From: Porphyra umbilicalis
Lineage: Eukaryota; Rhodophyta; Bangiophyceae; Bangiales; Bangiaceae
Direction of reading: 5' to 3'
Length of the DNA stretch: 64,000 nt
NCBI GenBank assembly: GCA_002049455.2
Contig: KV919066.1
Location: 1-64,000 of the forward strand
This document shows, piece by piece, positions 21,036-60,903 of this stretch. A program made the translations under genes and the position numbers. Position 1 is the first letter of the stretch, and every line of letters starts with the position of its first letter. The notes under the pieces are model-generated. The model ran no database searches. It saw nothing but the letters and a program-made list of their open reading frames with translations, and was not told where the DNA came from.

Positions 21036-21070
21036 AAACAAGAACTGCCGCGGCAACAAGCAAGGAGGAG

Positions 21071-32740: not shown

Positions 32741-32775
32741 CTCCTCCTTGCTTGTTGCCGCGACAGTTCTTGTTT

Positions 32776-36204: not shown

Positions 36205-36285
36205 CAGCAGGTTCTAGTACTTTGACGTCAGCCCGTTGAGGACGCTCATGGCAACGTCCATCTCCGTCATCTCGCCGCCCATGGC

Positions 36286-36702: not shown

Positions 36703-36863
36703 GATGTCTTCTTGTCGTAGTGCCCGACCTTGCCGAGCCGTGCGCCTTGACCGTCACGTCCTTGAACCAACTTGACCTCGACTTTTTCGCACTTGCGGCG
36801 ACCGCCGCGACACCAGCTGGCACACCTTGCTCTTGTCACAGCCCCGGCTCTGGGCCCATTACC

Positions 36864-38633: not shown

Positions 38634-38689
38634 GGAGCTGGTGCCGATGGTGCCGCTGCCGCGGCCGCCGGCAATCGATCGCCAGTAGG

Positions 38690-39760
38690 CATCGGCATTG
38701 GCGGAGAATCTGATGGTGCGGGCGCCATTGCCGCGGCCGCTGGTCTGGTTGGCCCGGCGGCGGCCGTCGGCGGTGGCTCGTCAGCGGGCGTGGGGGGCGG
38801 TGGAAGAGCTGGTGGAGCGGGCGCCGCCGCCGTGGCCGCCCACTTCGGTGGCTGCGCGGCCGCCGCCGGCGGCGACTCGTCACCGGGCGCGCGTGGCGGG
38901 GAAGGAGCTGATGATATGGGCGCCGTTGCCGCGGCCGCCGACTTTGGTGGCTCGGCGGCCGCCGCCGGCGGCGACGCGCCAGTGAGCGTGCGTGAAGGAC
39001 AACCAGCTGATGGTGCGGGCGCCGCCGCCGCGGCCGCCGACTTTTGTAGCTCGGCGGCTGCCGCCGCTAACGACTTCGTGCGTCAAGGAGAAGCAGCAAG
39101 TGGTGCGGGCGCCGCCGCCGCGGCCGCCGACCTTGGTGGCTCGGCGGCCACCGCCGGCGGCGACTCGTCACCGGGCGTGCGTGGCGGAGAAGGAGCTGGG
39201 AAGGCGGGCGCCGCCGCCGCGGCCGCCGACTCTGGTGGCTCGGCGGCCGCCACCGGCGGCGACTCGCCAGCGGGCGTGCGTGGAGGACAACCAGCTCGTG
39301 GTGCGAGCGCCGCCGCCGCCGCCGCGGACTTTGCTGGCTCGACGGCCGCCGCTGGCGCCGACTCGCTAGCGTGCGCTTGCGGAGAAGAAGCAGCTGGTGG
39401 TGCGGGCGGCGCCGCCGCAGCCGCCGACTTTGGTGGCTCGGTAGCCGCCGCCGGCGGCGATTCGTCACCGGGCGTGCGTGGCGGAGAAGGAGCTGGGAGT
39501 GCGGCCGCCGCCGCCGCGGCCGCCGACTCTGGTGGCTCGGCGGCCGCCGCCGGCGGCAACTCGCCAGCCGGCTTGCGTCGAGGAGAAGCAGCTTGTGGTG
39601 CGAGCGCCGCCGCCGCGGCCGCGGACTTTGCTGGCTCGGCGGCCGCCGCTGGCGCCGACGTGCCACCGGGTGCGTGCGGAGAAGAAGCAGGGGTGGCGGC
39701 GGAGGTGCTGATGGTGCGGGCGCCGCCGCCGCGGCCGCTGGCCTTATCGGTCCGCCAGCG
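38690..39760. repeat. 99-bp GC-rich array with a three-unit higher-order period (~297 bp)
   Basis: The block GCCGACTTTGGTGGCTCGGCGGCC or a variant begins near 38937, 39037, 39126, 39227, 39327, 39426, 39522 and 39621 (mostly 96-101 bp apart). Read in one plus frame, unit types alternate in threes: one with SSPGVRGGEGA, one with SPAGVRGGQ, and one with DFAGS followed by ACGEEA. Units three apart are more alike than neighbours, so the triple was amplified as a block. All six frames stay open because the period is a multiple of three. I do not call it a gene. Confidence 0.75.
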
Positions 39761-40134
39761 GCCGCGGGAGGTGGCTCCAGAGCCACAGGACCTGCCGCTG
39801 ATGCGGCCGCCGCGGCGGCTGCAGCTCCTCGTTTGGTGGCTTTGCCACATGCTCCCGTGAATCTGGGCGGCGCGGACCCCCCGCCGGGTTTTTTTCAATT
39901 TCAGTTGCGGGCGCGCCAGACTGCCACGGAGAGAATCGAGTTCTTCTCTCTCCGCGAAGACCTGGCAGTCCGTATTTTCGTGTATTGCGGGTCCCTTCTG
40001 ATGCCGTATCTGTGGCGTTCAACAGGTTTTTTTCCCGCCATCATGGCTTTTTTTTTTCCTCACACATTGGCACGTCGGCGGACGCCGCCACGCCGACCCG
40101 GGATAGCAAAGACTTTTGGACGGCCTCCGTTTTA

Positions 40135-41306
40135 TCAAGGCAGACGGACGAGGCCACCGCTCTGTCTGGCGTAGGCGGATGTTCGCGAGTGGCTTATACT
40201 TTCATGCTGCAGCATGAATGGTAGACAAGTAAGAAGATTGTGCCGTGCTTGCTTCTCAGACGGAGTCGCTGAGTCGGACGAAGTCGATGTGTAGGAAAAA
40301 AAAAACCCGGCGAAGGGGAACCTAGTACCACAGGCAGCGACCTCCTCTTCGTCGCCCGATTCGCCAGCGGCCGCATTATGCGGCCGCGGCGTCATGAAAC
40401 GGCTTGGACCCGACAGGGTGATCCTGGCCGCCGTGAAGCGGGCCTGCTTGGTCTGAAACGCGTCACATCCTCGCCCCTCCCTCTGCTTGACCGAGCCGAC
40501 ACCGGCCGAGGCCGCAGCGCGGCGGGCAACGGCCGCGCTTGCGGCTGCGGCTGGTGATGCGCCGGCACGCGGCGACGCGTCGACGCCGCCACTCGAAGGA
40601 GATAAAGACGGAGGCAATGCGGCCGCACTCGCGGCAGCGCCAGGCGCATGGGACCCGACAGTGCGGTCTGCGGCCGGCGCCAACTCGGCCACTTCGCCGC
40701 CGTTCACAGCCACGCCGCCGGGAGTAGCGGGCGTTCCACCAAACCCGGGAGACATGGCCGCGCCGCCACTTGGAGAAACTGCAGATGCTGACCATGCGGC
40801 CACACTTGGATCCTTACCTGCGGCCGCACCCGCCGCCGCCTCAGCGGCCGCGGTAGCGGCCGCAGAGGTGCCCGACACAGAAGGCGCCGTTGTTGTCGAG
40901 CGGGAAGCGACCCGTGCCTCTGCGGACTTGGCTTTGCGAAGGCTGGCGTTGAAAAGCAGAAGCCGCAGCTCCCTCTCGTTCTTGCGCCACTGCTCCTTCT
41001 CACCCGTCTCACGCACGTCCTTGGCCTTCCAAAAGTCGATGTCGGCGCGCTCGATGGCCGTCTCAGACAAGAACTTGACGGCAGCCGCCGTCGTGGCGGC
41101 CTCCCTTTAGATAGCAATGTCAGTCGAGGCCGCCGCTTTGGCCGCCTGCGTACCGATAGGCCGCTCTTGACAGAGGCCGCGCCGCCTGCCGACCGTGGAG
41201 CTCGAGTGGTCGTTTGAAATGTCCTCGACGGCCTCGTCTGGCAGAGGACGGCAGCCGTGGGCGGCGGCTGCCGTGGCGGCCGTCCCCCACGCGCCTCTGA
41301 ACTTGT
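40135..41306 (-). pseudogene. Harbinger ORF1-like protein, C-terminal part
   Basis: Reading leftwards from the E3 LTR, one frame gives FNNKFRGAWG, then LPDEAVEDISNDHSS and CQERPIGTQAAKAA, then (past a TAA at 41107-41109) FLSETAIERADIDFWKAKDV and a charged helix EKEQWRKNERELRLLLFNASLRKAKSAEA. The block R-P-I-G-x-x-A-A-K followed by a charged helix is typical of the C-terminal domain of the NAM-associated/Myb-like ORF1 that partners Harbinger transposases. It lies tail to tail with the transposase at 37.3-38.6 kb, the usual two-gene layout. Copia E3 cuts it off at 41306. The missing N-terminal part is at 51640-52882 on the other strand. Residues after ~41070 become Ala/Ser/Gly-rich. Confidence 0.6.
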
Positions 41307-41724
41307 TGTTGAACTGCAGTGGAAATAGGGGTTGGGGAACCACGGTGAAGTGGTTGCGTGGCTTGAGCTTGTGTGTGTGTGTGCGAACGTGCTTTGTTGG
41401 TTGTCCTAAGGTTCGCCCGCCTCTCCCAACCGAGAGCACCTCTCAAATAGTCCCAACCGGCCCAAGTGCTCCCCCCTCTCGCGCCCACACCGACGCCCAC
41501 GCCCTCGCACCAAATCGAATCACTCACCAAATCAAAAGCCACTAGAGCAAAGCGAAGATCAAATCCAAAACACGCCAAAAGTAACGCCACTAGATGACCC
41601 AACACGAATGTGTGCAACTTGACCACGTCTTGCAAATGTACCATGTGGGGTACCATAAGGGTCACCGACCAACATCCATCCGCGATCCGCCAGTGGAGCC
41701 GGCGACGAGCATCACAGTCCAACA
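41307..41724 (-). repeat. 3' LTR of E3 (418 bp)
   Basis: It has the family ends. It shares CATCTAGTGGCG in its middle with both E4 LTRs, where E1, E2 and the solo LTR have GATCTTGGGGCG. Confidence 0.9.
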
Positions 41725-44700
41725 CTCCCACTTGCTCATTGCCGCGGTGGTTGTCATTTTCAGCAAAGCCTCATGGCCCCGACATGCTTGTCGTGCTTGG
41801 TCTTGCCGAGCTCCTTCGTCATTGGGTCCGCCACCATGTCGTCCGTTGCACAATGCTCCAGTGTCACCTTGACCGTCGTGATGGCCTCGCGCACGAAGTG
41901 GTAGCGAATGCCGATGTGCTTTGTGCGCTTCTGCTCGATGGGGAAGCGTCCTTAATCTTGTAGATCGCCGCCAGGCTTGATGCCACCAAAAGAAGATCGT
42001 CGACGTACAGCAGGACGATGATGATTTCGCCGTCATCAAGAAAGCGGTAGAGACATGCATCCGGGTCAATGTTGTCAAACCCCTGCGACTTGAATAAGTT
42101 GTCAAGATTGGCATACCACATCTTGGGGGCTTGCTTCAGCCCATACAGCGCTTGGAGGAGACGACACACTTTGTCAGGATACGTCGGATTGACATAGCTG
42201 TCTGGCTGCTTCATGTTGACCTCCTCGTCAAGGTCTCCGTTGAGGAATGCCGTCTTGACGTCCATCTGATGAAGCTCCCACCCGTTCGCCGCCGTCATCG
42301 CCAGGATGCATCGAGCGGTGGTGAACTTGGCCACCGGCGCGAACGTCTCGTTGAAGTCGAGCCCCGTGATCTGCCGGTTCCCCATGAAGCACAGGCGCGC
42401 CTTGTGCCGCGTCGTGTTGCTCCTGTTCTTGTCAACCTCGTTCTTGACCGTGTGAACCCACTTGCCCTTCAGCACGCGTCGACTGGCCGGCCGATCCGTC
42501 AAGCGCCGAGTCTTGTTCTTGCGGATGGCTTCCATCTCCTCGTCCATGGAAATCTTCCACTTAGCCGATTCTTGCCCTTGAACGGCTTGCACGTACGTCG
42601 TGGGCGCCTCGTGAGCAACCAGGCTCACCGGTCGCCAGTACTCGACAGGGGGTCGCCGCGCTCTGCCGCTCCGACGAAGCGTGTCTTGAGAGCCGCCACT
42701 ACCTTGATTGTCGTCCGCGGACTTGTCAGATCCATCGTTTTGCTTGTCGTCCTTGTCGTCATTGTCAGCATCTACGTCTTCGCCGTCGCTTGCAGAACGC
42801 AAGCCCGTCTGGACTTCGACAACTTCGTCTCCGGGAAGCTCCTCTGCAACTTCTGCAGTCTCGCTTACATTGGTCTCGGCGAACACAACGCTTCGTGCCT
42901 TGCCAACCTTGCCGTCGTCAACAATGGCTGTGTATGCCTTGCTGCCGTCAAGATAGCCTAAGACGACGCCCTTCGCCGCCTGGTCGCCAAGCATGCCGTC
43001 GATGTGATTCTTGTGCAGCAAGACCGAGCATGTCAACCCAAGCACCCGCATGTGGCTTACGTTGGGCTTATTCCCGGTCCACAGCTCAAAAGGCGTCTTG
43101 CCAACGGATAGTGCCCGGTTCGTGAAGCGGTTCTTGATGTACACCACCGTCTTGATGGCATCCGCCCAAAGATCCTGATCGACGTCCTTGTGTCGCATCA
43201 TGGGGCGAGCCATCTCCACGAGGACTCGGTTGAGCCGCTCAGCAACTCCGTTCTGCTGCGGCGTGTCGGGCACCGTGGTCTGGTGCGTCGTGCCGTTCTC
43301 ATCGTGGAGAGCCTTGAATGCTCAAAAGGCGTCTTGCCGACGGATAGTGCCCGGTTTGTGAAGCGGTTCTTGATGTACACCACTGTCTTGATGGCATCCG
43401 CCCAAAGATCCTGATCGACGTCCTTGTGTCGCATCATGGGGCGAGCCATCTCCACGAGGACTCGGTTGAGCCGCTCAGCAACTCCGTTATGCTGCGGCGT
43501 TTCGGGCACCGTGGTCTGGTGCGTCGTGCTGTTCTCATCGTGGAGAGCCTTGAATGCGCTCGACACGTACTAGCCGCCATTGTCGGAGCGAAGGATCTTG
43601 ATCTTGGTTCCCGTGTGCAGCTGGACCTTAGTCAGCCACCTCTTGTACTCAGAGAGCAGATCGGTCTTTTTCTGCAGGAAGACCACGTCGGTCCAGCGGG
43701 AGAAGTCGTCGGTGAAGGTGCCGAAGTAGAGCGCACCGCCACGCGACGGCTGCGACATTGGCCCGCCCAGGTCCGAGTGCACGAGCTGCAGGCGCTTGGT
43801 CACTCGACCTCCTCCTGCACTCGGCATTGGCGTCATAGCCGCCTTCCCGTACACGCACGGCTCGCAGACGTCCGTGACAACCATGGAAGAGGACTTAAGT
43901 CCGTCAATGTCCTTGTTCTTGATCATCCGCTCAACGCCAGACACGTTGACGTGCCCAAGGCGCTCATGCCATAGCTGCAGGGAGGCCACCGCAGAAACAT
44001 CCGACAAAGGGGCCATGTCCAGGTGGTAAAGCCCGTTTTTACGCCTGCCGAACGCAGCAATCTTCTCGTTCATCTTGATGATCGTCTTACCGCCCTTGAA
44101 TGACACTTCCGCCCCACGTTCCTCCATCATGCCGACCGACATGAGGTTGACGCGCATTGTAGAAACATGAAGTACCTCCTTCAATTTGATCTTGAGCGTC
44201 CTGCCCTGAACGATGACGTTGAGGACGGCCGTTTCGACACCCGCCGTGGTCACGGACCCCTTTCCAAACATGGTAAAGCTGCGTCCCGTGGTCGTCTGGT
44301 AACCATCGAAGCTCGCGTGCACGCAGCACATGTATGAAGACGCCACAGAATCGACGAGCCACGACTTGGAGATGTCATCGGTGTCAGCTGCATTGCCCAC
44401 CAGACAGATGGCCTCGTCGCTATCGCTAGCGTCGTAAGCAGCCATCGCGGCCACCATGTGCGTTTCTTGCTCCTGGGCTTTAGAACTGGGCAATCGTCAG
44501 AGTTGTGTCCCAACGTTTGGCAGTAGTAACACTCGATCTCAGAGAGGTCACCACGGCGACCTTGACCTCGATAGTTGGCGCCGACAAGTACCATGTCGCC
44601 AATGCGCTTCGTCGCCGGTGACGTTTCCGCCGGCCGCCGCTCCTCCTGAAGCAAGCGGCTCTTGACAAAGTCAAGGCTCAGCTTGTTCTCTCCCTTGACG

Positions 44701-45370
44701 TCGAGAGCCACCAGCAGGTTCTCGTACTTGGACGTCAGCCCGTTGAGGACTCTCATGGCAACGTCCATCTCCGTCACCTCGCCGCCCATGGCCTAGAGGT
44801 TCTCGCCGAGGTTGCGCACGCGGTTGATGTAGCCATGCATGCCCTCGCCGACGGTCATTTCGACGGTGTAGAACTCGGGTCGCGCCTTCATCTTGTTCAT
44901 CAAACTCTTGCGCTGGAAGACACCTTGCAGCGTCGACCACATTTCCGCCGTCGTCTTGCAGCCCGACACGTGCTCGAGCTGCTCAGACCCAAGGGTGAGC
45001 CCGATGATAGCGCTCGCCTTCGTGTCTCGACGCTTCCACAACGCCAACTCGCGGTCTTCCGCGTCCGTCGGCTTGCCGTCTTCGTCAAGCATATCGTCCA
45101 GGTCGCGCAGCACGAGGACCATCTTAATGCGCTGACGCCACTCGTGGAAGTTCGTCTCCGTCAACTTTTCGATCGTGATGCCGCCCATGCCGGCAGCGCC
45201 TCCGTCCATGATGTCCTCTTGTCGTAGCGCCCGACCTTTCCGAGCCGTGCACATTGACCGTCACGTCCTTGAACCAACTTGACCTCGACTTTTTCGCACT
45301 TGCGGCGACCGCCGCGACACCAGCTGGCACACCTTGCTCTTGTCACAGCTCCGGCTCTGGGCTCATAACC

Positions 45371-45456
45371 TGTTGGGATTCGAAAGTTGTACCACTCAGC
45401 TACAGCCACAATACCAGTGTGAATGGACCTGAGGAGTTCAAACCTATAATCCAACA
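45371..45456 (-). repeat. TRIM-type LTR used as the 5' LTR of E3 (86 bp)
   Basis: The minus strand reads TGTTGGATTATAGG...CCCAACA, then the primer site and the copia leader. TTGAC (GTCAA on the minus strand) lies directly outside at 45457-45461. Confidence 0.85.
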
Positions 45457-46050
45457 TTGACGAGAAGGTCTACATGGAGCAGCCAGATGGCTATATCAAT
45501 TTGATGTGTACTGAAAAGATGTCTTTTCTGCTTTAAGCGCTGTATGGTCTGAAAGAAGCCAACAAGATGTGCTTCACCCAGCGGGACGACTTCCGGGCGT
45601 CGCAGGGGTTCGATCACATCGACCCGGATGCATGTTTTTACCTCCTCATGGATGACGGCAAAATAATCATCGACCTCGTGTACGTCGACGATTTTCTTTT
45701 ATTGGCATCAAGCCTGTCGGCGATCTACATGATTAAGGACGCTCTGCACAGGCGTTTTGAGATGAAGGACCGGGGCGAGTCGAAGGTCATCCTCGGGCTA
45801 GAGATTAGGTGTCACAAGGCGTTGGGCACCCTCAAGCTGTCACAGGGCAAGAACGCGACGCAAGTGCTGAGGACGTTCGATATGGCGGAGTGCAACCCCA
45901 TCGGAACACCACGAGGCGTTCACTACGGAAAAGGTGACACTGGAGAATTGTTCAACAGACAACATGGATGCGGACCAAATTTCGGAGGAGGTAGGCAAGA
46001 AAAAGCAACATAAGCATGTCGAGACGATGGGACTTTGCTGTGTGAAGTCG
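45457..46050 (+). mobile_element. 3' part of old copia copy E5
   Basis: This codes in part for copia reverse transcriptase (YVDDFLLLASS) and the extreme end of the pol region, in a clearly more diverged version than E1-E4. It has several breaks and no 3' LTR that I can recognise. The start, TTGAC, is half of a target-site duplication whose other half is at 57606-57610, next to the 5' part of the same old element on the opposite strand. Confidence 0.75.
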
Positions 46051-48314
46051 ACGATGTTGAGTGGGTCCGTTGATTCTTTAGGCACGGCGTTCCCAGGCAT
46101 GCGAAGACGCACATGATAGCCGCCAGGCCACCTCAGCCGCAGCGTCCTCCCAGGCAGCCCCTCTGGCGCGGCCGAAGAGACCCGCACGGCGTCTTCCAGG
46201 GCAGCTGCCGCACTTTCGATGGGTGACCATAGCCTTCCACTCAAGGCGCAACTTCCCACACAAATCTCCCCTGGAGCTCAACCCCTGATGGGTTCCCCGC
46301 TAAAATCGTGCAAACATGTACATGCAGTGTCACAAAACACATGCAGCGACTGACGACCTTCGCAAGGGCCGGTTGTCACTGGGGATTGTAAAAGTACACT
46401 TCACACTCCCCCCCAGTTCTGCGGGGATCATTGCAGCCACCCCGTCGAATACCAGTCAGCAGAAGTCCGTGCAAGGCTCTCCGGGGACGATCCAACCAAA
46501 AGGTCTCAAGCCCTGTAGGCCGCCTTCATGCAGAGCGGTCTGAATCCCTTCAGCCCCATGTCCAGAATTCAGATTTTGAACCAACCTCCGATGGGGACAA
46601 ATCAGACCCGGGAGGATGCCAGAGGCACGTCCGGGCCTGTCTGGCTCACGTACGACCCCATCCGGTACATCGGAGAACACACCCACAGTGATCGTTCTGG
46701 CCTCGAGGCTGAAGCCCGTGAGAAGCCTTCCAAATCTCAGTTTTTCAACCGTCTTCGGAAGGGGCCCAGGAGGGTCCGGGCAGGTGCTCCGGTGACGCCC
46801 GACCCGTCCAGGTGCCCGTTCGACCACATCTATTCCGTCGAGCCCTACCGAAGGAAAGCCTAGAGTTATTTCGCCCCATGACCACGTGTTGCAGTGACCT
46901 CACGTGTTGCAACGACGCCGCGTGTTGCAACGTCGCCACGTCTTGCTCCCGGAACAATCTTCCATGCCACGACATTCGGGCCCGAAATCTTGAAATCGGC
47001 GCCCGGGCCCGCCCAGCCGGATGCAATCACGCCCGTTAGCGCCCCATAGCCGGGCACTTTGACGACGCGCCTTAGCACGCCGGGTCCGGCAGGGATGCAA
47101 GCGTTGCGGGCGACGGCGCAATGCGCGGAGTCGCCCGTAGCCCACTCAGCCCTCCAATCACAAGCGCGCGCCTTGCACTACAGTCTCGCCAACTGTGCAA
47201 AGCCGGAGATGTACATTTTTATAGCCAAGCGGGCCGCTGGCGTTTTGTCAACTAGGAGAATAAACTCGCCCAGGCGCTGCGTGGTTTGCGCTTTGCGCTT
47301 GACGTTGAATTTGGGAAGGACCGCTTTTTTCCGTCGCCGTGTTCACAGTACACGACTCTTTGGCGCAAGCCCAAACGACCAGGTACTTGTCGAAAACCAC
47401 GCTCGACCGCCAGGGCGCGTCCTTGGCAGCTTGCCGCAGCCACCACGGCAACCAGAGCCGCAACCGCCGCGCGCACGTCCCTCCCGCAACGGCCGCGTTC
47501 CTCCCAAAAAGGGCACAATGTAGCCGCGTTAGGAGTTTGATGGACGCGTCGAGCATGCCGCGGAGCAGGTCCTCGGCGTGAGACGTCGGGATCTGGCTCG
47601 CCGGTTTGTTGTGCATCGCCGAGGCTAGGTGCTGGCAACGCTGCCGCTTCTTAAGCCTGCCGCCGACGTGCTTTTTCTGCAGCTTTCGAACTTCACGCCG
47701 CGTAGAGCCTGACGCTCTCTCCAAGGCAAAGCTTTGAGAGCTGTCTGAGTTGCCCGAGTAGTCAAATTCGCCGTCATCGATGCTTTTTCGGCTGTCGACA
47801 GGCCCAGCAGGACACAGCGCCACCTGCAGCAGAGATTGGCGCGTCACCCTCCGGCGAAACACTGCCGCTAAAAGCTACACCACCTCGCCCCACAACCACT
47901 TCACCAACCCCCATCACAACGCCGCTGCCCTTGGTCGCTCCGACAGATCCAGCCTCAGCGGCCAAACATTCAGCATGCTGAATGTCGTCGTCGGCCTTGA
48001 ACACCACTGCAGCAGCACCTTGAGCCCGGGCAAGGTCTTTTAACTTGGATTGAAGTGCAGTGACGCCTTTGCCGTGACGTTGTCAGTGGGCGCGCCGCCA
48101 GCTGCACACGTGATGCCGCCTGCTGCGGCTCCGCGGCTGCCGCTTGCGACCCGAGTGGAAACATTTTATGTCCTCCTTTTCTCTCCCGCAGTGTGCCACT
48201 TACGCGTCCTCTGACCTCTGCCCCTTCCCTGCGCGCCCCTCCGCAAACCGTCACTTCGCCACCGGTCCCTCCGCTGGCCGCCGATTCGCCAGGAGGCGCG
48301 ACTAGTTCGTCGTC
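46051..48314. other. No gene recognised; short minisatellite
   Basis: There are ORFs of 120-200 codons on the minus strand (around 46456-46827 and 47248-47862), but no motif I can name. At 46882-46945 a unit of about 18 bp (CACGTGTTGCAACGACGC and variants) repeats roughly four times. Confidence 0.35.
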
Positions 48315-48803
48315 CTAGGTGGTCAGAGGATGGAAAAAGTCGAATGAGATGCGTGCGGTTTCGGCGGACGCAGGTTTGAGCGCTAGGCGGAAGCCAGAAG
48401 CCGCCATCATGCCGCCCGCGCTCTCAAGGTACCGATACGGCATGCACAGCATTTGCGTGCCGGGAGCGCTCTCCAACACGTTAGGGTCCTCAAGCATCGG
48501 CAGCCAAATGATCTGATTCGTGATGTCGTAGCCAGACACGTGCTCGTAAAAGTTGAAATCGATTTTCGCAAGCGTGTGCATCCGGGCCGACGGGCGGGAT
48601 TCGCCGACACCAGCAACGGCAGAGAGTGTGTTCGGCAACCGCACTGGGAGCAGCGGCGACGAGAAGGGCAGGCCAAGAGCGGGGCACCCCGGGGGCCTGT
48701 GTGGGACCGGCCGAAGCGTTAGCAGCACAGGGCACGCAATTGCAAGCTGGGGGGAGAGAAAACTTCTCGCGCGATTTATGATCTGAGGCACAGCGGCATT
48801 CAC
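48315..48803 (-). CDS. Hypothetical ORF, unrecognised
   Basis: This 162-codon frame has a non-repetitive second half (KIDFNFYEHVSGYDITNQ, IWLPMLEDPNVLESAPG, MLCMPYRYLESAGG, ISFDFFHPLTT) with mixed residue use, unlike the Ala/Arg-rich frames around it. It could be the last exon of a gene or a relic. No family is recognised, and the N-terminal half is Pro/Arg-rich and doubtful. Confidence 0.28.
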   Translation of the reverse strand: MNAAVPQIINRARSFLSPQLAIACPVLLTLRPVPHRPPGCPALGLPFSSPLLPVRLPNTLSAVAGVGESRPSARMHTLAKIDFNFYEHVSGYDITNQIIWLPMLEDPNVLESAPGTQMLCMPYRYLESAGGMMAASGFRLALKPASAETARISFDFFHPLTT

Positions 48804-50790
48804 GTGCCACAGAAGCGTCTGTTAGAGCATACCGAGAAACGTCGGTTGCGAACGGTCTGCGAACCGTTGAAGAGCGCAACGTGTGCGCCTAAGAGTGGCC
48901 AAAAGAGTTTCGGCAGCGATATGCGCAGGCTCTGCGAACCCGCTCCGCTCGGATCGAGAGAACTTGTTGTCTTCTGTCGGCAGATCGCAGTTATCGGGAA
49001 ACGGAGAAGGCGACGTTGCTGGGTTGTCGACCTGCAAACTGGAGCCTGTGAGCAGCTTTCCCGTGAGATGTCCACATTCCAACAGTCCCGTGCTACATTT
49101 CAAGCAAACAGGCCATCCATCGACCTTGCGATCAAGCTGATGTGGACCCCAATTGTCAGCAAATCAGACGGTCAAGAGAGACACGCAGCGCGATAGTCTC
49201 CAAATGGCTGCAAATTCTTTCGATCGAGTTGACACGACGAGGTCAAATGCATAAATGTTGGAGACACGTTGGCAGTATCTCGCATCATCTCGCGGCGCTG
49301 TCGCATCTCGCGACTTACAGCAGGGAATTGTAGGTCTCCCGTTGGTCCGGTCAGCTGGCAGACGTACTGCGTACGTGCAATCTGGTGGCGCTTCCGCCTC
49401 GGTCGGCACTGGAGCATTCTATTCTGCAGCGCCTGTGAGGCGGCCGCTTGGTGTCTGCCGGTCACCGCGACGCAGAGCGGGCTCCTACGTGGTCGCCTGC
49501 GGAGGTCGAGCGACCCGGCCGGCAAGTCTGCCGAGACGCGGCAGGGTCCACTTACGATCGCGTCCCTTGCGGAGCAGCCCCATCGTGCGACCCCCTCCGA
49601 TTTCTGTGTCAGCGATCCGCATGCTCATTGGTCAGACGCACTCTCGCTGTGCTCTTCCCCGGTCACACCCTCGATTGGCCGTCCACAGTGAACGCCCGAC
49701 CGGGCGCCACATGTGGCTCAGAGAGCTCTGCGGCGTTTGAGCGACGCCCGCGAGCCCGGCAGGCCACGCGTAGAGCGCAGCGCCACGCTTGGCGTGACCT
49801 GCTGGGCCCCTGAGCTTGGCAGGCAAGAAAGGCGGCCGCCCGATTCCCCCCGAGCGAAAGGACGATCGAGGGCGGCCTCCTGTTTTTAGGGCGTACGGCG
49901 GGGTCGTGCCACCTGCGAGACCGTCGAGAATGGCCGGGGCGAAGCCTTGCGGGCCCCTTTGCGATCGTCTTCGCAGTGGCAGAGTGGAGGCGCCGCGCAT
50001 CGTCTTGAACTAACGCTTGAGCTTGGAGCAGACTCTATTTGTTGACCATCTGTGGGCGTAGTTCCAGCGCCGGGGGCAACCGCCTTTGGGCTGTGACCCG
50101 TTCGGCGCCGAGAGAGTAGCCGTGTGCATCCGCATGTGTGCGTACCGCCGCAATCGTCGCCAGCGGCCGCCGTTGCAGCGCGGGAAAGGAGACGTCGTGC
50201 GCGCGTGCTTTGTTGCGGCCGCCATCTTCGATGGCGGCCACGTTGCATCACTGGAGGAAGGACGTGCGAGTCGGCGCGCTTTTTCGCGGCCGCCGCTGTC
50301 GTTGGCGGCCGCGGCGGCACTGTGTGTGCGTGCGCGCTGCTCTTGGCGGCCGTCTTTCTTTGTGCCCGCCGCTGGTACACGACCGTTCTTGAACGAGGGT
50401 GCAGCGGGAGGCCTGGTGCCTCACCTTTTTGGCGGCCGCTCTGTGCAGAAGCGGCCGCCTTTCGCTCGCTGCCCACGAGGCGTCGTACTGTGCAAGGACC
50501 GGCCGTTGCGGCAGCATGGTTCTTCATGCGCCGCGTCGAATATCCAAAATGGAGCGCCGGCGCGGTCTGCGGCAGTTCTGCCGTATGTGCCGACGCACGC
50601 TGGGCGTCGGTGACGATCATCCCCTGTGCGCCCCATCCTGCCCATGTCCGTGGGCGGCGCGCACTCGTTTCATATAAGAGGCTTAACCATGAGCAGCTGG
50701 GGCCGACGCGCCACCACCACCAGCTGTACACCCTCCTTGCCTCGGTCCACTGCCGTCCCGTCCGCCGAGCCCGCATCTTCAAGACACGCG
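48804..50790. other. No gene recognised
   Basis: At 50216-50242 there is a short inverted repeat (GGCCGCCATC-TTC-GATGGCGGCC). Around 50545-50640 a plus frame reads QFCRMCRRTLGVGDDHPLC, a Cys/His cluster that could be a zinc-finger relic, but nothing around it supports a gene. Confidence 0.3.
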
Positions 50791-51150
50791 TATCTCCGCG
50801 TTGCGGCCGCCGCCGACGCGGCCTACCAGCCCATCCCGTCAAGGCCCGAGTCCCCCGGACAGGCGGCCGGGACCGTGCCTGCCGCCAAGCCCGACCGGCC
50901 GAGGTCCGCGTTGTTCCGACTGGCAGCCGCCGCCGCAGCTGCCGCCGAGCCCGCTTCGTCAGGGCCTGCGTCTCCCCGATTGGCGGCCGCCGCCGCGGCG
51001 GCCGCCGACCCCGCCCCGTCAAGGCCTGCGTCCCTCCGATTGGCGGCCGGGACCGTGTCGGACACTAAACCCGCCCCATCAAGGCCCACACTCTTCCGAC
51101 TGACGGCCACCGCCGCAGCAGCCGCCAAGCCCGCTTCGTCCAGGCTTGCG
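50791..51150. repeat. 60-bp tandem array, six units
   Basis: Six consecutive 60-bp units (20 codons) have the pattern LFRLAAAAAAAAEPASSGPA in the plus frame. A variant with AAGTV recurs every third unit, suggesting a 180-bp higher-order period. The ORF through it (50626-51159) is otherwise featureless. Confidence 0.7.
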
Positions 51151-51639
51151 TCCCCCTGATTGGCGGCCGGCACCCGCGCGGCTGCCGCGCCCAACTCGCG
51201 CGTACCAGCTGTCGCGAGGATAGCAATCACCGGCGAGCCCACCTCGAGCAAGCGCGCGCCGCACCAAAGTCCGCCCGTCATCATCGGATCCGGGGAGCCT
51301 TATTCGGTAAGGCGCATCTGGGTCCGCCTGGCGCCCGCCTCCGACGCGGCCGCCAAGCCCACTCGGTCGAGGTCCACCGTCTGCTACCAGGCGGCCGTCG
51401 CCCCAGCGGCGGCCGAGTCCCCCGAGCCCACCGCGTCCAGGACCATCTGCACCGACGTGGCCACCTGTCGAAACATCCAGTCCGCCAGGTCTCTTGGAGC
51501 AAGTGCGGCCACAAACTCCACCTGTGGCCGCGGGGGAACTGCGGGAGCTCCAGGAGCTTGCCCACAGAGCGCACAACATGGACCGGACGGCGCGATGGCT
51601 GCTGCTGGAGGGCAGTCCTGACTCCCTGGAGGAGAGCAA
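51151..51639. other. GC-rich, no gene recognised
   Basis: The 60-bp array fades out here. Overlapping ORFs exist on both strands, including a minus frame with CCALCGQAPG, without a recognisable domain. Confidence 0.3.
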
Positions 51640-52882
51640 TTGATGGGAGGCGCGGCAGAACAGGCGGCAGCAGATGAGGCATGGTCACCTGCCGCCTCCT
51701 CGGCCGCGCCCGGCGGGGCCGCCGATCGGGCGGCCCCCGATGCCGCCGCCACGGCCGCAGACCCACGCGCTGACGGAGATTTCGGGGCCCCTCCAAGCCG
51801 CAGCGTCGTGGAACGAGGATACAACCTCATTGCGGGGCGGTCATCAAGGCTGGGGCGAGGCCGCAGAGGTGCACTCGGCGGACCAATCGGCGCCGGCGGA
51901 CGCGGTGAAAGCGGCGTCGGAGATGCCACCCTTGACTCCGATGCCAAGCTTGCAGTCAGCGACCGCGGGGCGGGCAGGCGCGGAGCACTCGGAGGGCGCT
52001 GCCCTATCGGCGGCCGCGGTGCAGTGGTTGCAGAGGTGCGCGAGGCTGAACTGTCTGTCGCCGCGGCCACTTCCGGTATCCCGGCCTCTGACGCTGCACG
52101 AGGCGATGGCGGCGACGCAGAGTCCCGCAGCGCCGCGTTGCCCAGCCGATCAGGTTACGGAGCGGCCGCCTCAGCGGCCACTCACGGGAGTGGATCTGGC
52201 GACACAGCCGGAGCCGCGGCCGCCGACGGCGGCTGCGGCGGCGGAACCGGAGTCGACGATGAAGGGCGTGCACCACCCGCCAAATTCGGCGGGGTTGGGC
52301 ATGGAGAGGGTGCAGCGGCCGCCGGTGGAGGCGGGGACGGTGGCGGGCCCCCTTCCTCCTCAGCCACCGCTGCCACTGCCGACGCCGTCGCTGCTGGCGA
52401 CAGCGAGTCTTCTACCGGCAGGGACAGAGGAGGCTGCCGCGGATGGACCGAGGCAGAGCGAGAAGCTCTCTGCAAGGCCTTATTGGCGGTGGCGCAAGAC
52501 CCGGTGGACGGTACCGACCTGAGCCGAGCAACCTTTGCCGCTGAAATCGTCAACGGGTACGAGTCCCATTGCCCGATGGGCCCTGGACGCAGGGCGTGCA
52601 CGGACACCGCCATCGACCGCGAACTGCGTTATTCAGGTTTCAAGCACTTTCAACACTTTTCAACCCCGATGGTGGCCGTCGGGCGTCGCCAGATGACGGG
52701 CAATTTGACCGAAAAGGATTTGATACGCATGGCCACCGCGCACTTTGACGCCGAGAACCTGTATGAGTCCGTGCAGGTGCATGACAACGACAAAGGACGC
52801 GCTGATGTTGGTGGTGAAGGAGAGCGGCACGGGAGCAGCCGATTGGGTCAAGCGTTGGACGCTCATGCGCAAGTGAAACGAG
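51640..52882 (+). pseudogene. Harbinger ORF1-like protein, N-terminal Myb/trihelix part
   Basis: The first ~260 codons are Ala/Gly/Ser-rich and may not be real protein. From about 52440 a conserved-looking domain follows: RGWTEAEREALCKALLAVAQDP, then GTDLSRATFAAEIVNGY, RACTDTAIDREL, FKHFQHFSTPMVAVGR and TGNLTEKDLIRMATAHF. A Trp-acidic start, the V-x-x-D-P-V-x-G-T-D turn and the closing T-E-K-D-L-I-x-x-A-x-x-x-F block are typical of the Myb/SANT-like domain in the ORF1 that accompanies PIF/Harbinger transposases, where it binds DNA and helps import the transposase. Copia E4 interrupts it at 52883. The C-terminal part is at 40135-41306 (-). Confidence 0.6.
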
Positions 52883-53300
52883 TGTTGGACTGTGACGCTC
52901 GTCGCCGACTCCTCTGGCGGTTCGCGGATGGATGATGGTCGGTGACCCTTATGGTACCCCACATGGTACATTTGCAAGACGTGGTCAAGTTGCACACATT
53001 CGTGTTGGGTCATCTAGTGGCGTTACTTTTGGCGTGTTTTGGATTTGATCTTCGCTTTGCTCTAGTGGCTTTTGATTTGGTGAGTGATTCGATTTGATGC
53101 GAGGGCGTGGGCGTCGGTGTGGGCGCGAGAGGGGGGAGCACTTGGGCGGGTGGGGACTATTTGAGAGGTTCTCTCGGTTGGGAGAGGCGGGCGAACCTGA
53201 GGACAACCAACAAAGCACGTTCGCACACACACACACAAGCTCAAGCCACTCAACAACTTCACCGGGGTTCCCTAAACCCTATCCCCACTGCGTTTCAACA
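52883..53300 (+). repeat. 5' LTR of E4 (418 bp)
   Basis: By eye it differs from the 3' LTR of E3 at about 4-5% of positions. It shares CATCTAGTGGCG with it. ACGAG precedes it (52878-52882). Confidence 0.9.
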
Positions 53301-56300
53301 TGTTACGGTCCCAGAGCCGGGGCTGTGACAAGAGCAAGGTGTGCCAGCTGGTGTCGTGGCGGTCGCGGCAAGTGCGAAAAAGTCGAGGTCAAGGTGGTTC
53401 AAGGACGTGACGGTCAATGTGCACGGCTCGGAAAGGTCGGGCGCTACGACAAGAGGACATCATGGACGGAGGCGCTGCCGGCATGGGCGGCATCACGATC
53501 GAAAAGTTGACGGAGACGAACTTCCACGAGTGGCGTCAGCGCATTAAGATGGTCCTCGTGCTGCGCGACCTGGACGATATGCTTGACGAAGACGGCAAGC
53601 CGACGGACGCGGAAGACCGCGAGTTGGCGTTGTGGAAGCGTCGAGACACGAAGGCGAGCGCCATCATCGGGCTCACCCTTGGGTCTGAGCAGCTCGAGCA
53701 CGTGTCGGGCTGCAAGACGACGGCGGAAATGTGGTCGACGCTGCAGGGTGTCTTCCAGCGCAAGAGTTTGAGGAACAAGATGAAGGCGCGACCCGAGTTC
53801 TACACCGTCGAAATGACCGTCGGCGAGGGCATGCATGGCTACATCAACCGCGTGCGCAACCTCGGCGAGAACCTCTAGGCCATGGGCGGCGAGGTGACGG
53901 AGATGGACGTTGCCATGAGAGTCCTCAACGGGCTGACGTCCAAGTACGAGAACCTGCTGGTGGCTCTCGACGTCAAGAGTGCGGACGATCTGAGCCTCGA
54001 CTTTGTCGACAGCCGCCGGCTGCAGGAGGGGCGGCGGCAGGCGGACAAGTCACCGGCGACCAAGCGCATTGGCGACATGGTACTTGTCGGCGCCAACTAT
54101 CGAGGAAAAGGTCGCCGTGGTGACCTCTCTAAGATCGAGTGTTACTACTGCCAAACGTTGGGACACAACTCTGACGATTGCCCAGTTCTAAAGCCCAGGA
54201 GCAAGAAACGCACATGGTGGCCGCGATGGCTGCTTACGACGCTAGCGATAGCGACGAGGCCATCTGTCTGGTGGGCAATGCAGCTGACACCGATGACATC
54301 TCCAAGTCGTGGCTCGTCGATTCTGTGGCGTCTTCATACATGTGCTGCGTGCACGCGAGCTTCGATGGTTACCAGACGACCACGGGACGCAGCTTTACCA
54401 TGTTTGGAAAGGGGTCCGTGACCACGGCGGGTGTCGAAACGGCCGTCCTCAACGTCATCGTTCAGGGCAGGACGCTCAAGATCAAATTGAAGGAGGTACT
54501 TCATGTTTCTACAATGCGCGTCAACCTCATGTCGGTCGGCATGATGGAGGAACGTGGGGCGGAAGTGTCATTCAAGGGCGGTAAGACGATCATCAAGATG
54601 AACGAGAAGATTGCTGCGTTCGGCAGGCGTAAAAACGGGCTTTACCACCTGGACATGGCCCCTTTGTCGGATGTTTCTGCGGTGGCCTCCCTGCAGCTAT
54701 GGCATGAGCGCCTTGGGCACGTCAACGTGTCTGGCGTTGAGCGGATGATCAAGAACAAGGACATTGACGGACTCAAGTCCTCTTCCATGGTTGTCACGGA
54801 CGTCTGCGAGCCGTGCGTGTACGGGAAGGCGGCTATGACGCCAATGCCGAGTGCAGGAGGAGGTCGAGTGACCAAGCGCCTGCAGCTCGTGCACTCGGAC
54901 CTGGGCGGGCCAATGTCGCAGCCGTCGCGTGGCGGTGCGCTCTACTTCGGCACCTTCACCGACGACTTCTCCCGCTGGACCGACGTGGTCTTCCTGCAGA
55001 AAAAGACCGATCTGCTCTCTGAGTACAAGAGGTGGCTGACTAAGGTCCAGCTGCACACGGGAACCAAGATCAAGATCCTTCGCTCCGACAATGGCGGCTA
55101 GTACGTGTCGAGCGCATTCAAGGCTCTCCACGATGAGAACAGCACGACGCACCAGACCACGGTGCCCGAAACGCCGCAGCATAACGGAGTTGCTGAGCGG
55201 CTCAACCGAGTCCTCGTGGAGATGGCTCGCCCCATGATGCGACACAAGGACGTCGATCAGGATCTTTGGGCGGATGCCATCAAGACAGTGGTGTACATCA
55301 AGAACCGCTTCACAAACCGGGCACTATCCGTCGGCAAGACGCCTTTTGAGCATTCAAGGCTCTCCACGATGAGAACGGCACGACGCACCAGACCACGGTG
55401 CCCGACACGCCGCAGCAGAACGGAGTTGCTGAGCGGCTCAACCGAGTCCTCGTGGAGATGGCTCGCCCCATGATGCGACACAAGGACGTCGATCAGGATC
55501 TTTGGGCGGATGCCATCAAGACGGTGGTGTACATGAAGAACCGCTTCACGAACCGGGCACTATCCGTTGGCAAGACGCCTTTTGAGCTGTGGACCGGGAA
55601 TAAGCCCAACGTAAGCCACATGCGGGAGCTTGGGTTGACATGCTGGGTCTTGCTGCACAAGAGTCACATCGACGGCATGTTTGGCGACAAGGCGGCGAAG
55701 GGCGTCGTCTTAGGCTATCTTGACGGCAGCAAGGCATACACAGCCATTGTTGACGACGGCAAGGTTGGCAAGGCACGAAGCGTTGTGTTCGCCGAGACCA
55801 ATGTAAGCGAGACTGCAGAAGTTGCAGAGGAGCTTCCCGGAGACGAAGTTGTCGAAGTCGAGACGGGCTTGCGTTCTGCAAGCGACGGCGAAGACGTAGA
55901 TGCTGACAATGACGACAAGGACGACAAGCAAAACGATGGATCGGAAAAGTCCGCGGACGACAATCAAGGTTGTGACGGCTCTCAAGACACGCTTCGTCGG
56001 AGCGGCAGAGCGCGGCGACCCCCTGTCGAGTACTGGCGCCCGGTGAGCCTGGTTGCTCACGAGGCGCCCACAACGTACGTACAAGCCGTTCAAGGGCAAG
56101 AATCGGCTAAGTGGAAGATTTCCATGGACGAGGAGATGGAAGCCATCCGCAAGAACAAGACTCGGCGCTTGACGGATCGGCCGGCCAGTCGACGCGTGCT
56201 GAAGGGCAAGTGGGTTCACACGGTCAAGAACGAGGTTGACAAGAACAGGAGCAACACGACGCGGCACAAGGCGCGCCTGTGCTTCATGGGGAACCGGCAG

Positions 56301-56946
56301 ATCACGGGGCTCGACTTCAACGAGACGTTCGCGCCGGTGGCCAAGTTCACCACCGCTCGATGCATCCTGGCGATGACGGCGGCGAACGGGTGGGAGCTTC
56401 ATCAGATGGACGTCAAGACGGCATTCCTCAACGGAGACCTTGACGAGGAGGTCAACATGAAGCAGCCAGACAGCTATGTCAATCCGACGTATCCTGACAA
56501 AGTGTGTCGTCTCCTCCAAGCGCTGTATGGGCTGAAGCAAGCCCCCAAGATGTGGTATGCCAATCTTGACAACTTATTCAAGTCGCAGGGGTTTGACAAC
56601 ATTGACCCGGATGCATGTCTCTACCGCTTTCTTGATGACGGCGAAATCATCATCGTCCTGGTGTACGTCGACGATCTTCTTTTGGTGGCATCAAGCCTGG
56701 CGGCGATCTACAAGATTAAGGACGCTTCCCCATCGAGCAGAAGCGCACAAAGCACATCGGCATTCGCTACCACTTCGTGCGCGAGGCCATCACGACGGTC
56801 AAGGTGACACTGGAGCATTGTGCAACGGACGACATGGTGGCGGACCCAATGACGAAGGAGCTCGGCAAGACCAAGCACGACAAGCATGTCGGGGCCATGA
56901 GGCTTTGCTGAAAATGACAACCACCGCGGCAATGAGCAAGTGGGAG

Positions 56947-57363
56947 TGTTGGACTGTGATGCTCGTCGCCGGCTCCACTGGCGGATCGCGGATGGATGAT
57001 GGTTGGTGACCCTTACGGTACCGCAGATGGTACATTTGCAAGACGTGGTCGAGTTGCACACATTTGTGTTGGGTCATCTAGTGGCGTTACTTTCGGCGTG
57101 TTTTGGAACTGATCTTCGCTTTGCTCTAGTGGCTTTTGATTTGGTGAGTGATTCAAATTGGTGCGAGGACGTGGGCGTCGCTGTGGGCGCCGAAACGGAA
57201 AACACTTGGGCCGGTGGGGACTATGTGAGAGGTGCTCTCGGTTGGGAGAGACGGGGAACCTCAGGACAACCAACAAAGCCCGTTCGCACACACACACACA
57301 AGCATAAGCCACTCAACGACTTCACCGTTGTCCCCCAACCCCTATCCATACTGCGTTTCAACA
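56947..57363 (+). repeat. 3' LTR of E4 (417 bp, second subtype)
   Basis: It contains GCTGTGGGCGCCGAAACGG, the variant otherwise seen only in the 3' LTR of E1, and is followed at once by the TRIM primer site. Confidence 0.88.
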
Positions 57364-57605
57364 GGTTATGGGCCAAAGAAATTCCAGCTGAAGCTTGTTG
57401 ACTTTGCCGGAGGTCGCAGGTTCAAATCCCACCTGAGGGCGACTTGAAATCGCCGGAGTCTGAGGATTGGCTTCGTGAGTGAGACCTGGCGGCTTGAGTT
57501 CCTTTGAAGTTAGGACGAGTGTTGGCATTTATGTTTGAACTCCTCAGGACCATTCACACCGGTATTGTGGCTGTAGCTGAGTGGTACAATTCTCGAATCC
57601 CATCA
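57364..57605 (+). mobile_element. TRIM internal region and 86-bp LTR, fused to the E4 3' LTR
   Basis: GGTTATGGGCCAAAG (primer site, slightly changed) is followed by TRIM internal sequence with GGAGGTCGCAGGTTCAAATCCC, a purine-rich tract, and an 86-bp LTR at 57520-57605. GTCAA follows directly at 57606-57610 and pairs with the flank of E3's TRIM-type LTR. Confidence 0.82.
57520..57605 (+). repeat. TRIM LTR (86 bp)
   Basis: It reads TGTTGGCATTTATG...CGAATCCCATCA and contains TAGCTGAGTGG. It is one of the two outer LTRs of the composite element that was inserted with the GTCAA duplication. Confidence 0.8.
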
Positions 57606-58806
57606 GTCAAGGGCGCCGCTTACGGAGGCTGACTTGACGTCCATATGATGTAGTCCCTATCCGTTCCCCGCTGTCAGCGCCAGCAAGGAACGGATGGTAG
57701 TGAACTGGGCCACAGGCGTGAACGTCTTGCTGAAATCGCGCCCCCCCCTATGCTGGTGACCAATGAATGAAGGGTGCGCCTTGTGCCGCGGCGTGTTGCT
57801 CCCGTTTTTTTCCACCTCGTTCTTGACCGTGATGTCCCATTTGCCTTTGAGCCCGCGTCCAATGGACCCGAGCGATATGTTAAGCCCCAATTCTTGTTCT
57901 TGCGGATGGCATTCATCTCCTCGTCCATCACAACCTGCCTTTCAGCTGCTCTTCGCCCTTGTACTACTTTCAAATACGCCATTGGCTCCTGGTGAGCCGC
58001 CAGGCTCTTCCGGCGCCAGTACGCGAATGTTGGTCGCCACGCTCTGCCGCTCCGACGCAGCCTGTCTTGAGAGTGGGCACAACCCTGATATTCGTTTATC
58101 GACTTGTCGAATATATTGTCTTGCTTTTCATCCTTGTCAAAGTTGTCAGTATCTACGGCTTTGCGGTCGCTTGCAGAACGCAAACCCGTCTCGTCTCAAA
58201 CAACCATGTCACCGGGCAACTCCACTAAATCATCTGCGACGTCGCTTACTTGCGTCTCGCCGAGCACGATTCTTCGTGGCTTGAAGATCTTGCCGCCTTA
58301 TACGCCTTGCTGCCGTCGAGAGAACCTGAAAAGACGCCCTTTGCCGCCTTGTCTCCATACGTGCCGTCGTTGTGACTATTGTGCATCACCGCCCAGCATG
58401 TCGACCTTAACACCCACATGTGGCTTACTTTGGGCTTGTTCTCGGTCGAAAGCTCAAAAGGCTTCGTGCTTCCGGGAATCGCTCGGCTGGCAACGCGATT
58501 CTTGATGTAGACCGCCTTCTTGATGACATCCGCCGAGAGATCCATATCGACGTCCTTGTCTCGCATCATGCTTCGAGCCATCTCCTTTAGGTCTGGGCTG
58601 AGTAGTTTCGCAACTCCGATCTGCTGTGGCGTGTCGGGCACCGTCGTCTAGTGCGACGTGCCGTTCTCATCGTGAACAGGCTTGAAAGCGCTCGAAACGC
58701 ATTCGCCGCCATTTTCTGAGCGCAGGACCTTGATCTTGCCTGCAGTGGGCAGCTGGGCCTTGATCAGCCACTTGTTGTATTGCTGGTTGCCCTTTTTTGT
58801 CCTGGG

Positions 58807-59152
58807 GGACTGGGACTGGGACTGGGACTGACTGTATTCCACCAATCAGGTGACCCCCTGGGACCGACTCTGTCCTTTTCACAGCACCGATGTGCTCATA
58901 CGCATTGGAAATGCACAACGGCATCTCAGCAGTTTTTCATATCTCTAGGGCAAACAGTGAGAATTCTCCGGATCACGGCACGATCTGGACTCGGAGCGGC
59001 AATGATCCCCTTGCAGGGTAGGAAAACAGTGACTTCTCGTCTGTGCAAGGCCCTCGTCACGAACCCGCACGTTTTATTGGCTGAAGTCGCGTCTGACAGC
59101 GCTTCTCAGCCAAATGTAGGCCCTTATTCGCAGTCAGTCCCAGTCTTAGTCC
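58807..59152. mobile_element. Small terminal-inverted-repeat element (~346 bp)
   Basis: The left end is GGACTGGGACTGGG and further copies of the GGGACT hexamer, ending in GACTGACTG. The right end is the complement of GGACTAAGACTGGGACTGACTG. The inner 16 bp of the two ends match exactly as an inverted repeat. It lies inside the integrase region of E5. I could not settle its target-site duplication, so the superfamily is open. Confidence 0.5.
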
Positions 59153-60903
59153 ATTAGGAAAGAATTGGGCAAGAAGCAATGCTCCGCAACAGTATCGCTC
59201 TTCTTCTGTAAAAATATCACGTCCTTGCAGCGGGAGAAGTCGTCTGTTGAGATGCCGAAATAGAGCGAACCACCACGCGACGGCTCTGACAGTGGCCCGC
59301 CCAGGTCCGAGTGCACGAGCTCCGAGCGCTTGGTCACTCGACCTCCTCCTGCACTAGTCATAGGCGTCATAGCTGCCTTTCCATACACGGACGGCTCGCA
59401 GACGTCCTTTTACGCCGTAAAAGAGCACTCGAGTCTGTCAATGTCCTTGTTCTTGATCATCCGCTCAACGCCAGACACGTTGACGTGCCCAAGGCGCTCA
59501 TGCCATAGCTGCAGGGAGGCCACCGCAGAAACATCCGACAAAGGGGCCATGTCCAGGTGGTAAAGCCCGTTTTTACGCCTGCCGAACGCAGCAATCTTCT
59601 CGTTCATCTTGATGATCGTCTTACCGCCCTTGAATGACACTTCCGCCCCACGTTCCTCCATCATGCCGACCGACATGAGGTTGACGCGCATTGTAGAAGC
59701 ATGAAGTACCTCCTTCAATTTGATCTTGCGCGTCCTGCCCTGAACGATGACGTTGAGGACGGCCGCTTCGACGCCCGCCGTGGTCACGGACCCCTTTCCC
59801 AACATGGTAAAGCTGCGACCCGTGGTCGTCTGGTAACCATCGAAGCTCGCGTGCACGCAGCACATGTATGAAGACGCCACAGAATCGACGAGCCACGACT
59901 TGGAGATGTCATCACTGTCAGCCGCATTGCCCAGCAGACAGATGGCGTCGTCGCTATCGCTAGCGTCGTAAGCAGCCATCGCGGCCACCATGTGCGTTTC
60001 TTGTTCCTGGGCTTTAGAACTGGGCAATCGTCAGAGTTGTGTCCGAACGTTTGGCAGTAGTAACACTCGATCCTAGAGAGGTCACCACGGCGACCTTGTC
60101 CTCGATAGTTGGCGCCGACGAGTGCCATGTCGCCAATGCGCTTGGTCGCCGGTGACTTGTCCGCCTGCCGCCGCCCCTCCTGCAGCCGGCGGCTGTCGAC
60201 AAAGTCGAGGCTCAGATCGTCCGCACTCTTGGCGTCGAGAGCCACCAGCAGGTTCTCGTACTTTGACGTCAGCCCGTTGAGAACGCTCAAGGCAACGTTC
60301 ATTACCTTCAATTCGCCACTCATGGCCTTGAGGTTCTCACCTAGGTTGCAGACGCGGTTGATGCAGCCCAGCATGCCCTCGCGGACGTTTTTCTTGACGG
60401 TGTAGATCGTGCGTGGCGCTTTCATCTGGTTCATTAACCTTTCGCGCTGGTAATCACCCAGATGTGTCGTCCACATTTCCGCCGTCGTCTTGCAGCCCGA
60501 CGCGTGCTCGAGCTGCTCAGACTCAAGAGTGAGCCCGATGATGGCTCTCGCGTTCGTATCTGGCACCTTCCACACAGCGAAGTTATGGTCTTTGTCGTTC
60601 TTCGGCTTGCCGTCTTCATCAAGCACTTCGTCCAGGTCGTGCAGCGTGAGGACCATCTGTATGCACTGACGCCTTTCGTGAATGTTCGTTTCCGTCAACG
60701 TGTCGATCGTGATGCCGCCCATGCAGGAGCGCCACTGTCCATGATGCCTGCTTGTCGGAGCGTCCTAGCGTGCCGTACCTGGCGACGTGACTGTCACGGC
60801 CTGGAACCAACCTGTGCTTTACATGCCCGCACTTGCCACGACCGCCGTGACACCATACATCACACCTTGCCATGGTCACAGCCCCGGCTCTGCGTTAATA
60901 ACC

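Follow-up and report, generated by a model that had tools for sequence, protein, structure and literature searches.

Exchanged flanks of two inverted copia elements in Porphyra umbilicalis and the inversion they very probably mark

How do two retroelements in opposite orientation come to carry flanks that fit not their own other end but that of their neighbour? The question is raised by a 64,000-nucleotide stretch of the Porphyra umbilicalis genome (contig KV919066.1, positions 1-64000, our contig C306; hereafter the window; 62% G+C, no N), which we searched against the 83.8 Mb genome of 665 contigs. Ten matches to light-harvesting proteins, the best of which has PDB 7y5e, a Porphyridium structure, as its nearest structural entry, would by themselves suggest a red alga. 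Four elements are named here as A (15630-21739, + strand), B (32323-37280, −), C (41307-45456, −) and D (52883-57605, +), C and D being E3 and E4 of a first-pass annotation of the same DNA; its name E5 is kept for an old copia that lies in two halves. We write LC and iC for the 418-bp LTR and the interior of the copia, LT and iT for the 86-bp LTR and 156-bp interior of a TRIM, and X and Y for the elements as they would have stood before an inversion, X made up of the 5' half of C and the 3' half of D, and Y of the 5' half of D and the 3' half of C. L-numbers denote loci fetched from elsewhere in the genome, and C-numbers preceded by 'contig' denote contigs.

Flanks and split hosts

The copia described here is a Ty1/copia LTR retrotransposon, with copia-type reverse transcriptase and integrase domains, LTRs, a primer-binding site and 5-bp duplications. 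In Pfam searches RVT_2 was found in D (E = 1.7e-50) and C (1.8e-50), and gag_pre-integrase and Pol_BBD in both, while rve was weak in these two elements (3e-05, below the cut-off); element A gave rve at 1.1e-11 and a copia-type gag at 4.4e-33. The primer-binding site is presumably of the half-tRNA-iMet type.

Read in the sense of the element, C is bounded by GTCAA at its 5' end (45457-45461, −) and ACAAG at its 3' end (41302-41306, −), and D by ACGAG at its 5' end (52878-52882, +) and GTCAA at its 3' end (57606-57610, +). The flanks agree at only 1 of 5 bases within C and 1 of 5 within D. Across the pair, GTCAA matches GTCAA at all five positions and ACGAG matches ACAAG at four, as the first-pass annotation had noted. 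Among 200,000 random pairs of 5-mers drawn from the window, 5/5 matches arose in 0.17% and matches of at least 4/5 in 2.1%. The ACAAG target site occurs once in each of 12 aligned copies of the gene that lies beyond these flanks, and the changed base can therefore be placed on the D side. Elements A and B were considered as a second swapped pair and rejected, since their flanks (GGCGG/CAAAC and TACCC/TCCAC) are unmatched in either cross; B has LTRs at both ends, and its own two flanks, TACCC and TCCAC, do not match.

The sequences outside these flanks fit together in the same crosswise manner. A multicopy gene with a long open reading frame lies in two parts, one at 50921-52882 (+) and the other at 39521-41306 (−), and in aligned copies the first is joined directly to the second, read from 41306 to 39521. 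An 861-bp query built from the joined gene flank gave 44 candidates, 40 of which were scored, yielding 43 rows: the two window halves, 38 places elsewhere and three further pieces away from the junction (contigs C152, C168 and C114). In all 38 of these scored places, which lie outside the window, the alignment passes the junction, with an identity of 83-90%, and in 36 it spans 766 or more of the 861 bases. Copies L009, L010 and L018 are collinear with the window over 50921-52874 and then 41306-39521 (~3.7 kb), passing from 52874 (+) to 41306 (−) with three unaligned copy bases between; the window lacks about 134 bases that these copies carry at 40321. Open frames in the 12 gene copies fetched measured 878 aa in eight, 877 in one, and 708, 685 and 516 in the other three. 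The first-pass annotation had called this a split Harbinger ORF1 gene: the split is borne out, and the Harbinger label is unconfirmed, the copy scanned (an 878-aa frame) giving only a Pfam NAM-associated match of 17.4 bits, below the cut-off of 27.7. The split gene family ends on both sides in tandem repeats rich in G+C (units of 99 bp and 60 bp; 38460-39784 and 50747-51187).

The second host is E5, whose displaced 3' part lies at 45457-46040 (+) and whose 5' part, the putative site of insertion of X, lies at 57606-61318 (−). Its division between these flanks onto opposite strands had likewise been recorded in the annotation; when joined, E5 aligned through the junction to B over 932 bp at 78% identity, and to A, C and D over shorter spans. 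Rather than unrelated sequence at the partner flanks, the finding that the annotation had set against its own proposal, the genome search thus gave continuous hosts at both junctions. A diverged TRIM (61480 to about 61818, −) lies just outside the 5' LTR remnant of E5.

Chimeric elements with mosaic arms

C and D form opposite-orientation arms of ~4.05 kb that are ~98% alike, that is, homologous inverted copies at both ends of the intervening segment. In C, an 86-bp TRIM LTR at the 5' end (45371-45456, −) meets the copia interior (41724-45369, −) at the primer-binding site, and a copia LTR forms the 3' end (41307-41724, −). D starts with a copia LTR (52883-53300, +) and a copia interior (53301-56947, +), and continues with a second copia LTR (56948-57363, +), a TRIM interior that begins with the primer-binding site of the copia (57364-57519, +) and a terminal TRIM LTR (57520-57605, +), the outer end of X. 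C thus opens with LT on iC and D closes with LC-iT-LT, so that neither carries one LTR type at both ends.

Exchanging the halves restores order. X then reads LT-iC-LC-iT-LT with GTCAA on both sides, the second copia LTR of D being internal to it, and Y reads LC-iC-LC, bounded by the 5' LTR of D and the 3' LTR of C. On at least four other contigs (C15, C16, C46 and C259) an LT-iC start is followed in the same orientation, at a distance of 4.4-5.2 kb, by an LC-iT-LT end, and all four of these composites, with both ends read, are enclosed by exact 5-bp duplications (TGTGG, CCATC, TGGCC and CGTCC); that restored X shows the same end layout with an exact 5-bp duplication supports the inversion. By the pairing and the type of their LTRs, C and D are each chimeric.

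The relationships among the copia LTRs point the same way. The 5' LTR of D and the 3' LTR of C are 95.5% identical, compared with 89.9% for the two copia LTRs of D and 90.7% for the 3' LTRs of C and D. In a tree built from 24 LTR rows (23 of them distinct, L048 being a repeat of the 5' LTR of B; five LTRs too divergent or too short had been dropped beforehand), the 5' LTR of D and the 3' LTR of C came out as sisters with a support of 0.866. The kinship agrees with the restored pairing; against it, the support is moderate, and L006, an ordinary copy, is nearer to each of these two LTRs (3.6% and 3.3%) than they are to each other (4.5%). The 3' copia LTR of D and that of element A share a variant (support 0.967) that the other composites compared do not have. 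Between the two TRIM LTRs of X there are 9 differences in 86 bases, and many other TRIM LTRs are at least as close to them.

Along the arms, the 86 mismatches in 4063 aligned bases are clustered. The least similar bins differ by 7-15% (14/194, 17/200, 20/200 and 12/82) and the remaining bins by 0-3.5%, while the longest mismatch-free runs measure 761, 643, 580 and 338 bases, a summed length reached in none of 10,000 shuffles. Two tracts are almost identical, with one difference each: 1403 bp (D 54132-55534, +, and C 43137-44539), a candidate crossover or conversion tract, and 917 bp (D 56082-56998, +, and C 41673-42589). Both interiors carry a 236-bp tandem duplication (D 55114-55585, +; C about 43084-43557) and a ~713-bp deletion (junction in D at 56726-56728, +). 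The deletion was seen in two of 40 scored rows, C and D themselves, and was absent from the other 38 (562 candidates). The duplication was found in one further place, contig C637 (40 of 305 candidates scored), and because of this third copy it is by itself no proof of conversion.

The mosaic arms together with the common 713-bp deletion suggest repeated exchange between the arms. Since X and Y would be separate insertions whose LTRs are about 10% apart, interiors so nearly identical suggest that one arm was converted by the other, and we infer gene conversion as the source of the mosaic; a collapse of reads in assembly would look alike. Contig C637 (L088:1-2964) matches the duplication at 100% over 201 bases, and for this reason first looked promising as a second haplotype. 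It was rejected as such: it holds another copy of the copia, and the flank beyond its LTR matches neither the window nor the fetched loci. Its copia differs from D at 2 of 528 bases over D 55350-55878 but by 7-12% over 54150-54900; copies of this family look like mosaics.

The point of exchange cannot be read from lineage. In a tree of the first 1 kb of the interior (20 rows, composite and ordinary copies, with L048 repeating B), C and D form a sister pair with a support of 1.000, at a distance of 3.0%; each is there the nearest kin of the other, and a location of the crossover by lineage was rejected on that ground. At the other end, the 3' LTR of C does not differ from that of D over roughly its first 50 bases, and the two also have in common a base (in GGATCG) that is absent in the other six LTRs aligned, which may mean, from this one site, that a converted or crossover tract ends inside the LTR.

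Course of the inversion and competing accounts

The sequence itself shows the exchange of flanks and of LTRs, the mosaic arms, and the hosts and composite layout that reappear when the halves are exchanged. The history that would connect them begins with two insertions: Y, an ordinary copia of the form LC-iC-LC, would have entered the multicopy gene with the duplication ACAAG, and X, a composite LT-iC-LC-iT-LT, would have entered E5 with the duplication GTCAA, the two lying in opposite orientation about 7.4 kb apart. Ectopic homologous recombination between their inverted interiors would then have turned around the segment between them and part of both arms, leaving C as the 5' half of X on the 3' half of Y and D as the 5' half of Y on the 3' half of X. 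A swap of halves by recombination accounts for the exchange of flanks, LTR types and host halves alike. The exchange would be expected between D 53301 and about 57000, perhaps in one of the two near-identical tracts, and it is by host continuity and the gene copies that 45457-52882 appears inverted relative to the order at insertion. We infer that the event took place in the chromosome and is no product of the assembly, and that the exchange lay inside the interior.

That ectopic recombination between X and Y inverted this segment is, in our judgement, very probable, and the crossover between the arms put forward in the first-pass annotation is strengthened by evidence from the hosts, the LTR pairing and the restored composite architecture. 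Its closest competitor, which we regard as unlikely, holds that the chromosome is un-inverted and that the assembler passed from one inverted 4 kb repeat into the other, turning the segment around and perhaps copying one arm into the other. The breakpoints do lie in long repeats of 98% identity with a 1.4 kb near-identical tract, such tracts could also be produced by read collapse, and of the two orders the un-inverted is clearly the older; moreover, aligning the small contig C637 with D over about 2.5 kb leaves 37 gap columns, and part of the assembly may accordingly be rough. Against a misassembly, however, the arms are kept apart by their 86 differences, and there is one N in the 353,124 bases of the window and 86 loci (overlapping loci counted more than once), which, together with contigs that reach 800 kb, suggests a long-read assembly. 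Searches for a second haplotype or un-inverted copy gave, with 40 of 101 candidates scored, no near-identical second copy of the spacer part 46100-48100, the nearest other match reaching 79%; with the E5-side flank and the joined gene flank, nothing near-identical was seen outside the window among the scored candidates. Two unrelated insertions with flanks that match by chance and no inversion at all are scarcely credible: elements with unmatched flanks do occur in the window (A and B), but host continuity already refutes such a coincidence: both junctions bring a host sequence back together, and for one host this holds in all 38 scored outside places.

The case resembles inversion 2z3 of Drosophila, for which exchanged duplications and chimeric copies of Galileo served as criteria in the portions of text compared (Delprat et al. 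2009, PMC2775673). There too, copies at the breakpoints lie in opposite orientation with swapped target-site duplications and chimeric structure, and ectopic recombination was concluded on the same grounds. In that study (same portions of PMC2775673) the elements were DNA transposons and the sequence of non-inverted chromosomes was obtained as well; our case concerns copia and TRIM LTR elements 7.4 kb apart, known in the inverted order. So far as can be checked within one genome, C and D show both the exchanged duplications and the chimeric structure. A literature search on swapped target sites with conversion gave no match, which carries little weight, the search phrase being our own. With flanks, LTRs, two hosts and architecture in agreement as independent marks, the locus offers a compact and legible case of two inverted retroelements rearranging a genome. 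The inversion itself is an ordinary, well-marked event; composites joined at a primer-binding site are less ordinary.

TRIM-copia composites in the genome

The TRIM has the structure LT-iT-LT, with 86-bp direct LTRs and a non-coding 156-bp interior that carries a primer-binding site and a purine tract, and fits the traits of TRIMs, including 5-bp duplications. Both ends were checked in 17 copies or arrays, of which 13 had exact 5-bp duplications and one an exact duplication of 6 bp (L047); the imperfect ones matched at 4/5 in two (L051 and L073) and at 3/5 in L055. A search for structured RNA in the TRIM gave one Rfam match, at chance level (E 0.28), and a tRNA search of the window found none. 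Typical copia and TRIM copies have about 19 bp in common, consisting of the last LTR bases and the primer-binding site (AACAGGTTATGGGCCCAGA).

The composite searches scored 40 of 357 and 40 of 652 candidates, and the four composites other than X are known from their ends alone. Unpaired LT-iC starts (contigs C70, C102, C118 and C246) and unpaired LC-iT-LT ends (contigs C107 and C123, a second place on contig C15, two on C559 and one on C22) were left out of the count. The outer TRIM LTRs differ at 1 of 86 bases on contig C15, 2 on C259, 4 on C46 and 8 on C16, beside the 9 of X. On contigs C46 and C259 the inner copia LTR is of a different subfamily, with similarity confined to the last ~146 bases. 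The composites did not form one clade, being scattered in the interior tree (first 1 kb, with several nodes weakly supported), and the fusions therefore seem to be recurrent. Related arrays open with LC-iT-LT-iC (contigs C9, C103 and C143) or are tandem TRIMs of the form LT-iT-LT-iT-LT (L040 and L055, on contigs C206 and C345).

Two LTR families joined at a common primer-binding site would fit a reciprocal transfer of plus-strand strong-stop DNA. It is about an even chance that the TRIM and its coding copia partner were repeatedly fused during reverse transcription in this way, the strong-stop DNA of one annealing to the primer-binding site of the other and giving alternating concatemers (LT-iC-LC-iT-LT, LC-iT-LT-iC... 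and LT-iT-LT-iT-LT) that integrate as units. Alternatively, X may not be one insertion: a TRIM would have entered E5 first and later gained the copia interior and LTR from a copia circle at the common primer-binding site. This history, which concerns the origin of X and leaves the inversion unchanged, would end in the same layout and duplication and would draw on the 19 bp that typical copies have in common at the junction. We think it rather doubtful. A stretch of 19 bp is short for homologous recombination, whereas the lack of a single composite clade and the existence of tandem TRIMs with a similar layout would both be accounted for by a switch of template between RNAs packaged together. 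If fusion in reverse transcription is the correct account, the fusions would record co-packaging and name the helper of the TRIM, and composites integrated as opposed copies would seed inversions and conversion. The composites tie the TRIM family to a coding partner.

In rice, Dasheng/RIRE2 chimeras arise where a non-autonomous element recombines with an autonomous partner, much as a TRIM and a copia may have done here; they combine the LTR of one element with the interior of the other and are not known to have the layout LT-iC-LC-iT-LT. Three-LTR insertions with duplications have been explained by template switching between co-packaged RNAs (Sabot & Schulman 2007, PMC1950507). In the portions of that paper compared, the complexes of Triticeae, rice and maize resemble ours in having three LTRs, two interiors, outer LTRs of matching type and a 5-bp duplication. 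They lie within one family (Angela, Squiq or Opie), with the switch proposed between R regions; our composites instead link a copia to a TRIM, elements whose LTRs differ (418 and 86 bp), and do so at the primer-binding site. TRIMs in tandem arrays, among them L3I2, have also been described, with 5-bp duplications around the arrays given in a legend; of 289 plant TRIM subfamilies, no more than 11 were found to have related LTR elements of greater length, and four of these encode full proteins (text portions of Gao et al. 2016, PMC4717578). The tandem TRIMs L040 and L055 are of this kind; in our composites TRIM parts also alternate with a coding copia interior and LTR, a mixed array absent from the portions of PMC4717578 compared. 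Tandem Cassandra arrays with three LTRs, which the text compared explains either by template switching or by recombination of adjacent copies, repeat one family (PMC7215508), whereas here two LTR families are joined.

Further junctions of the two families were seen. Element A reads LC-iC-LC-iT-LT, with three LTRs, mixed ends and unmatched flanks, and is probably another recombinant. On contig C559, two TRIM ends (L062/L066) lie inverted and near-palindromic, each joined to a copia LTR fragment, and on contig C135 a TRIM (L056/L075) sits inside a copia interior with the 5-bp duplication CATGC.
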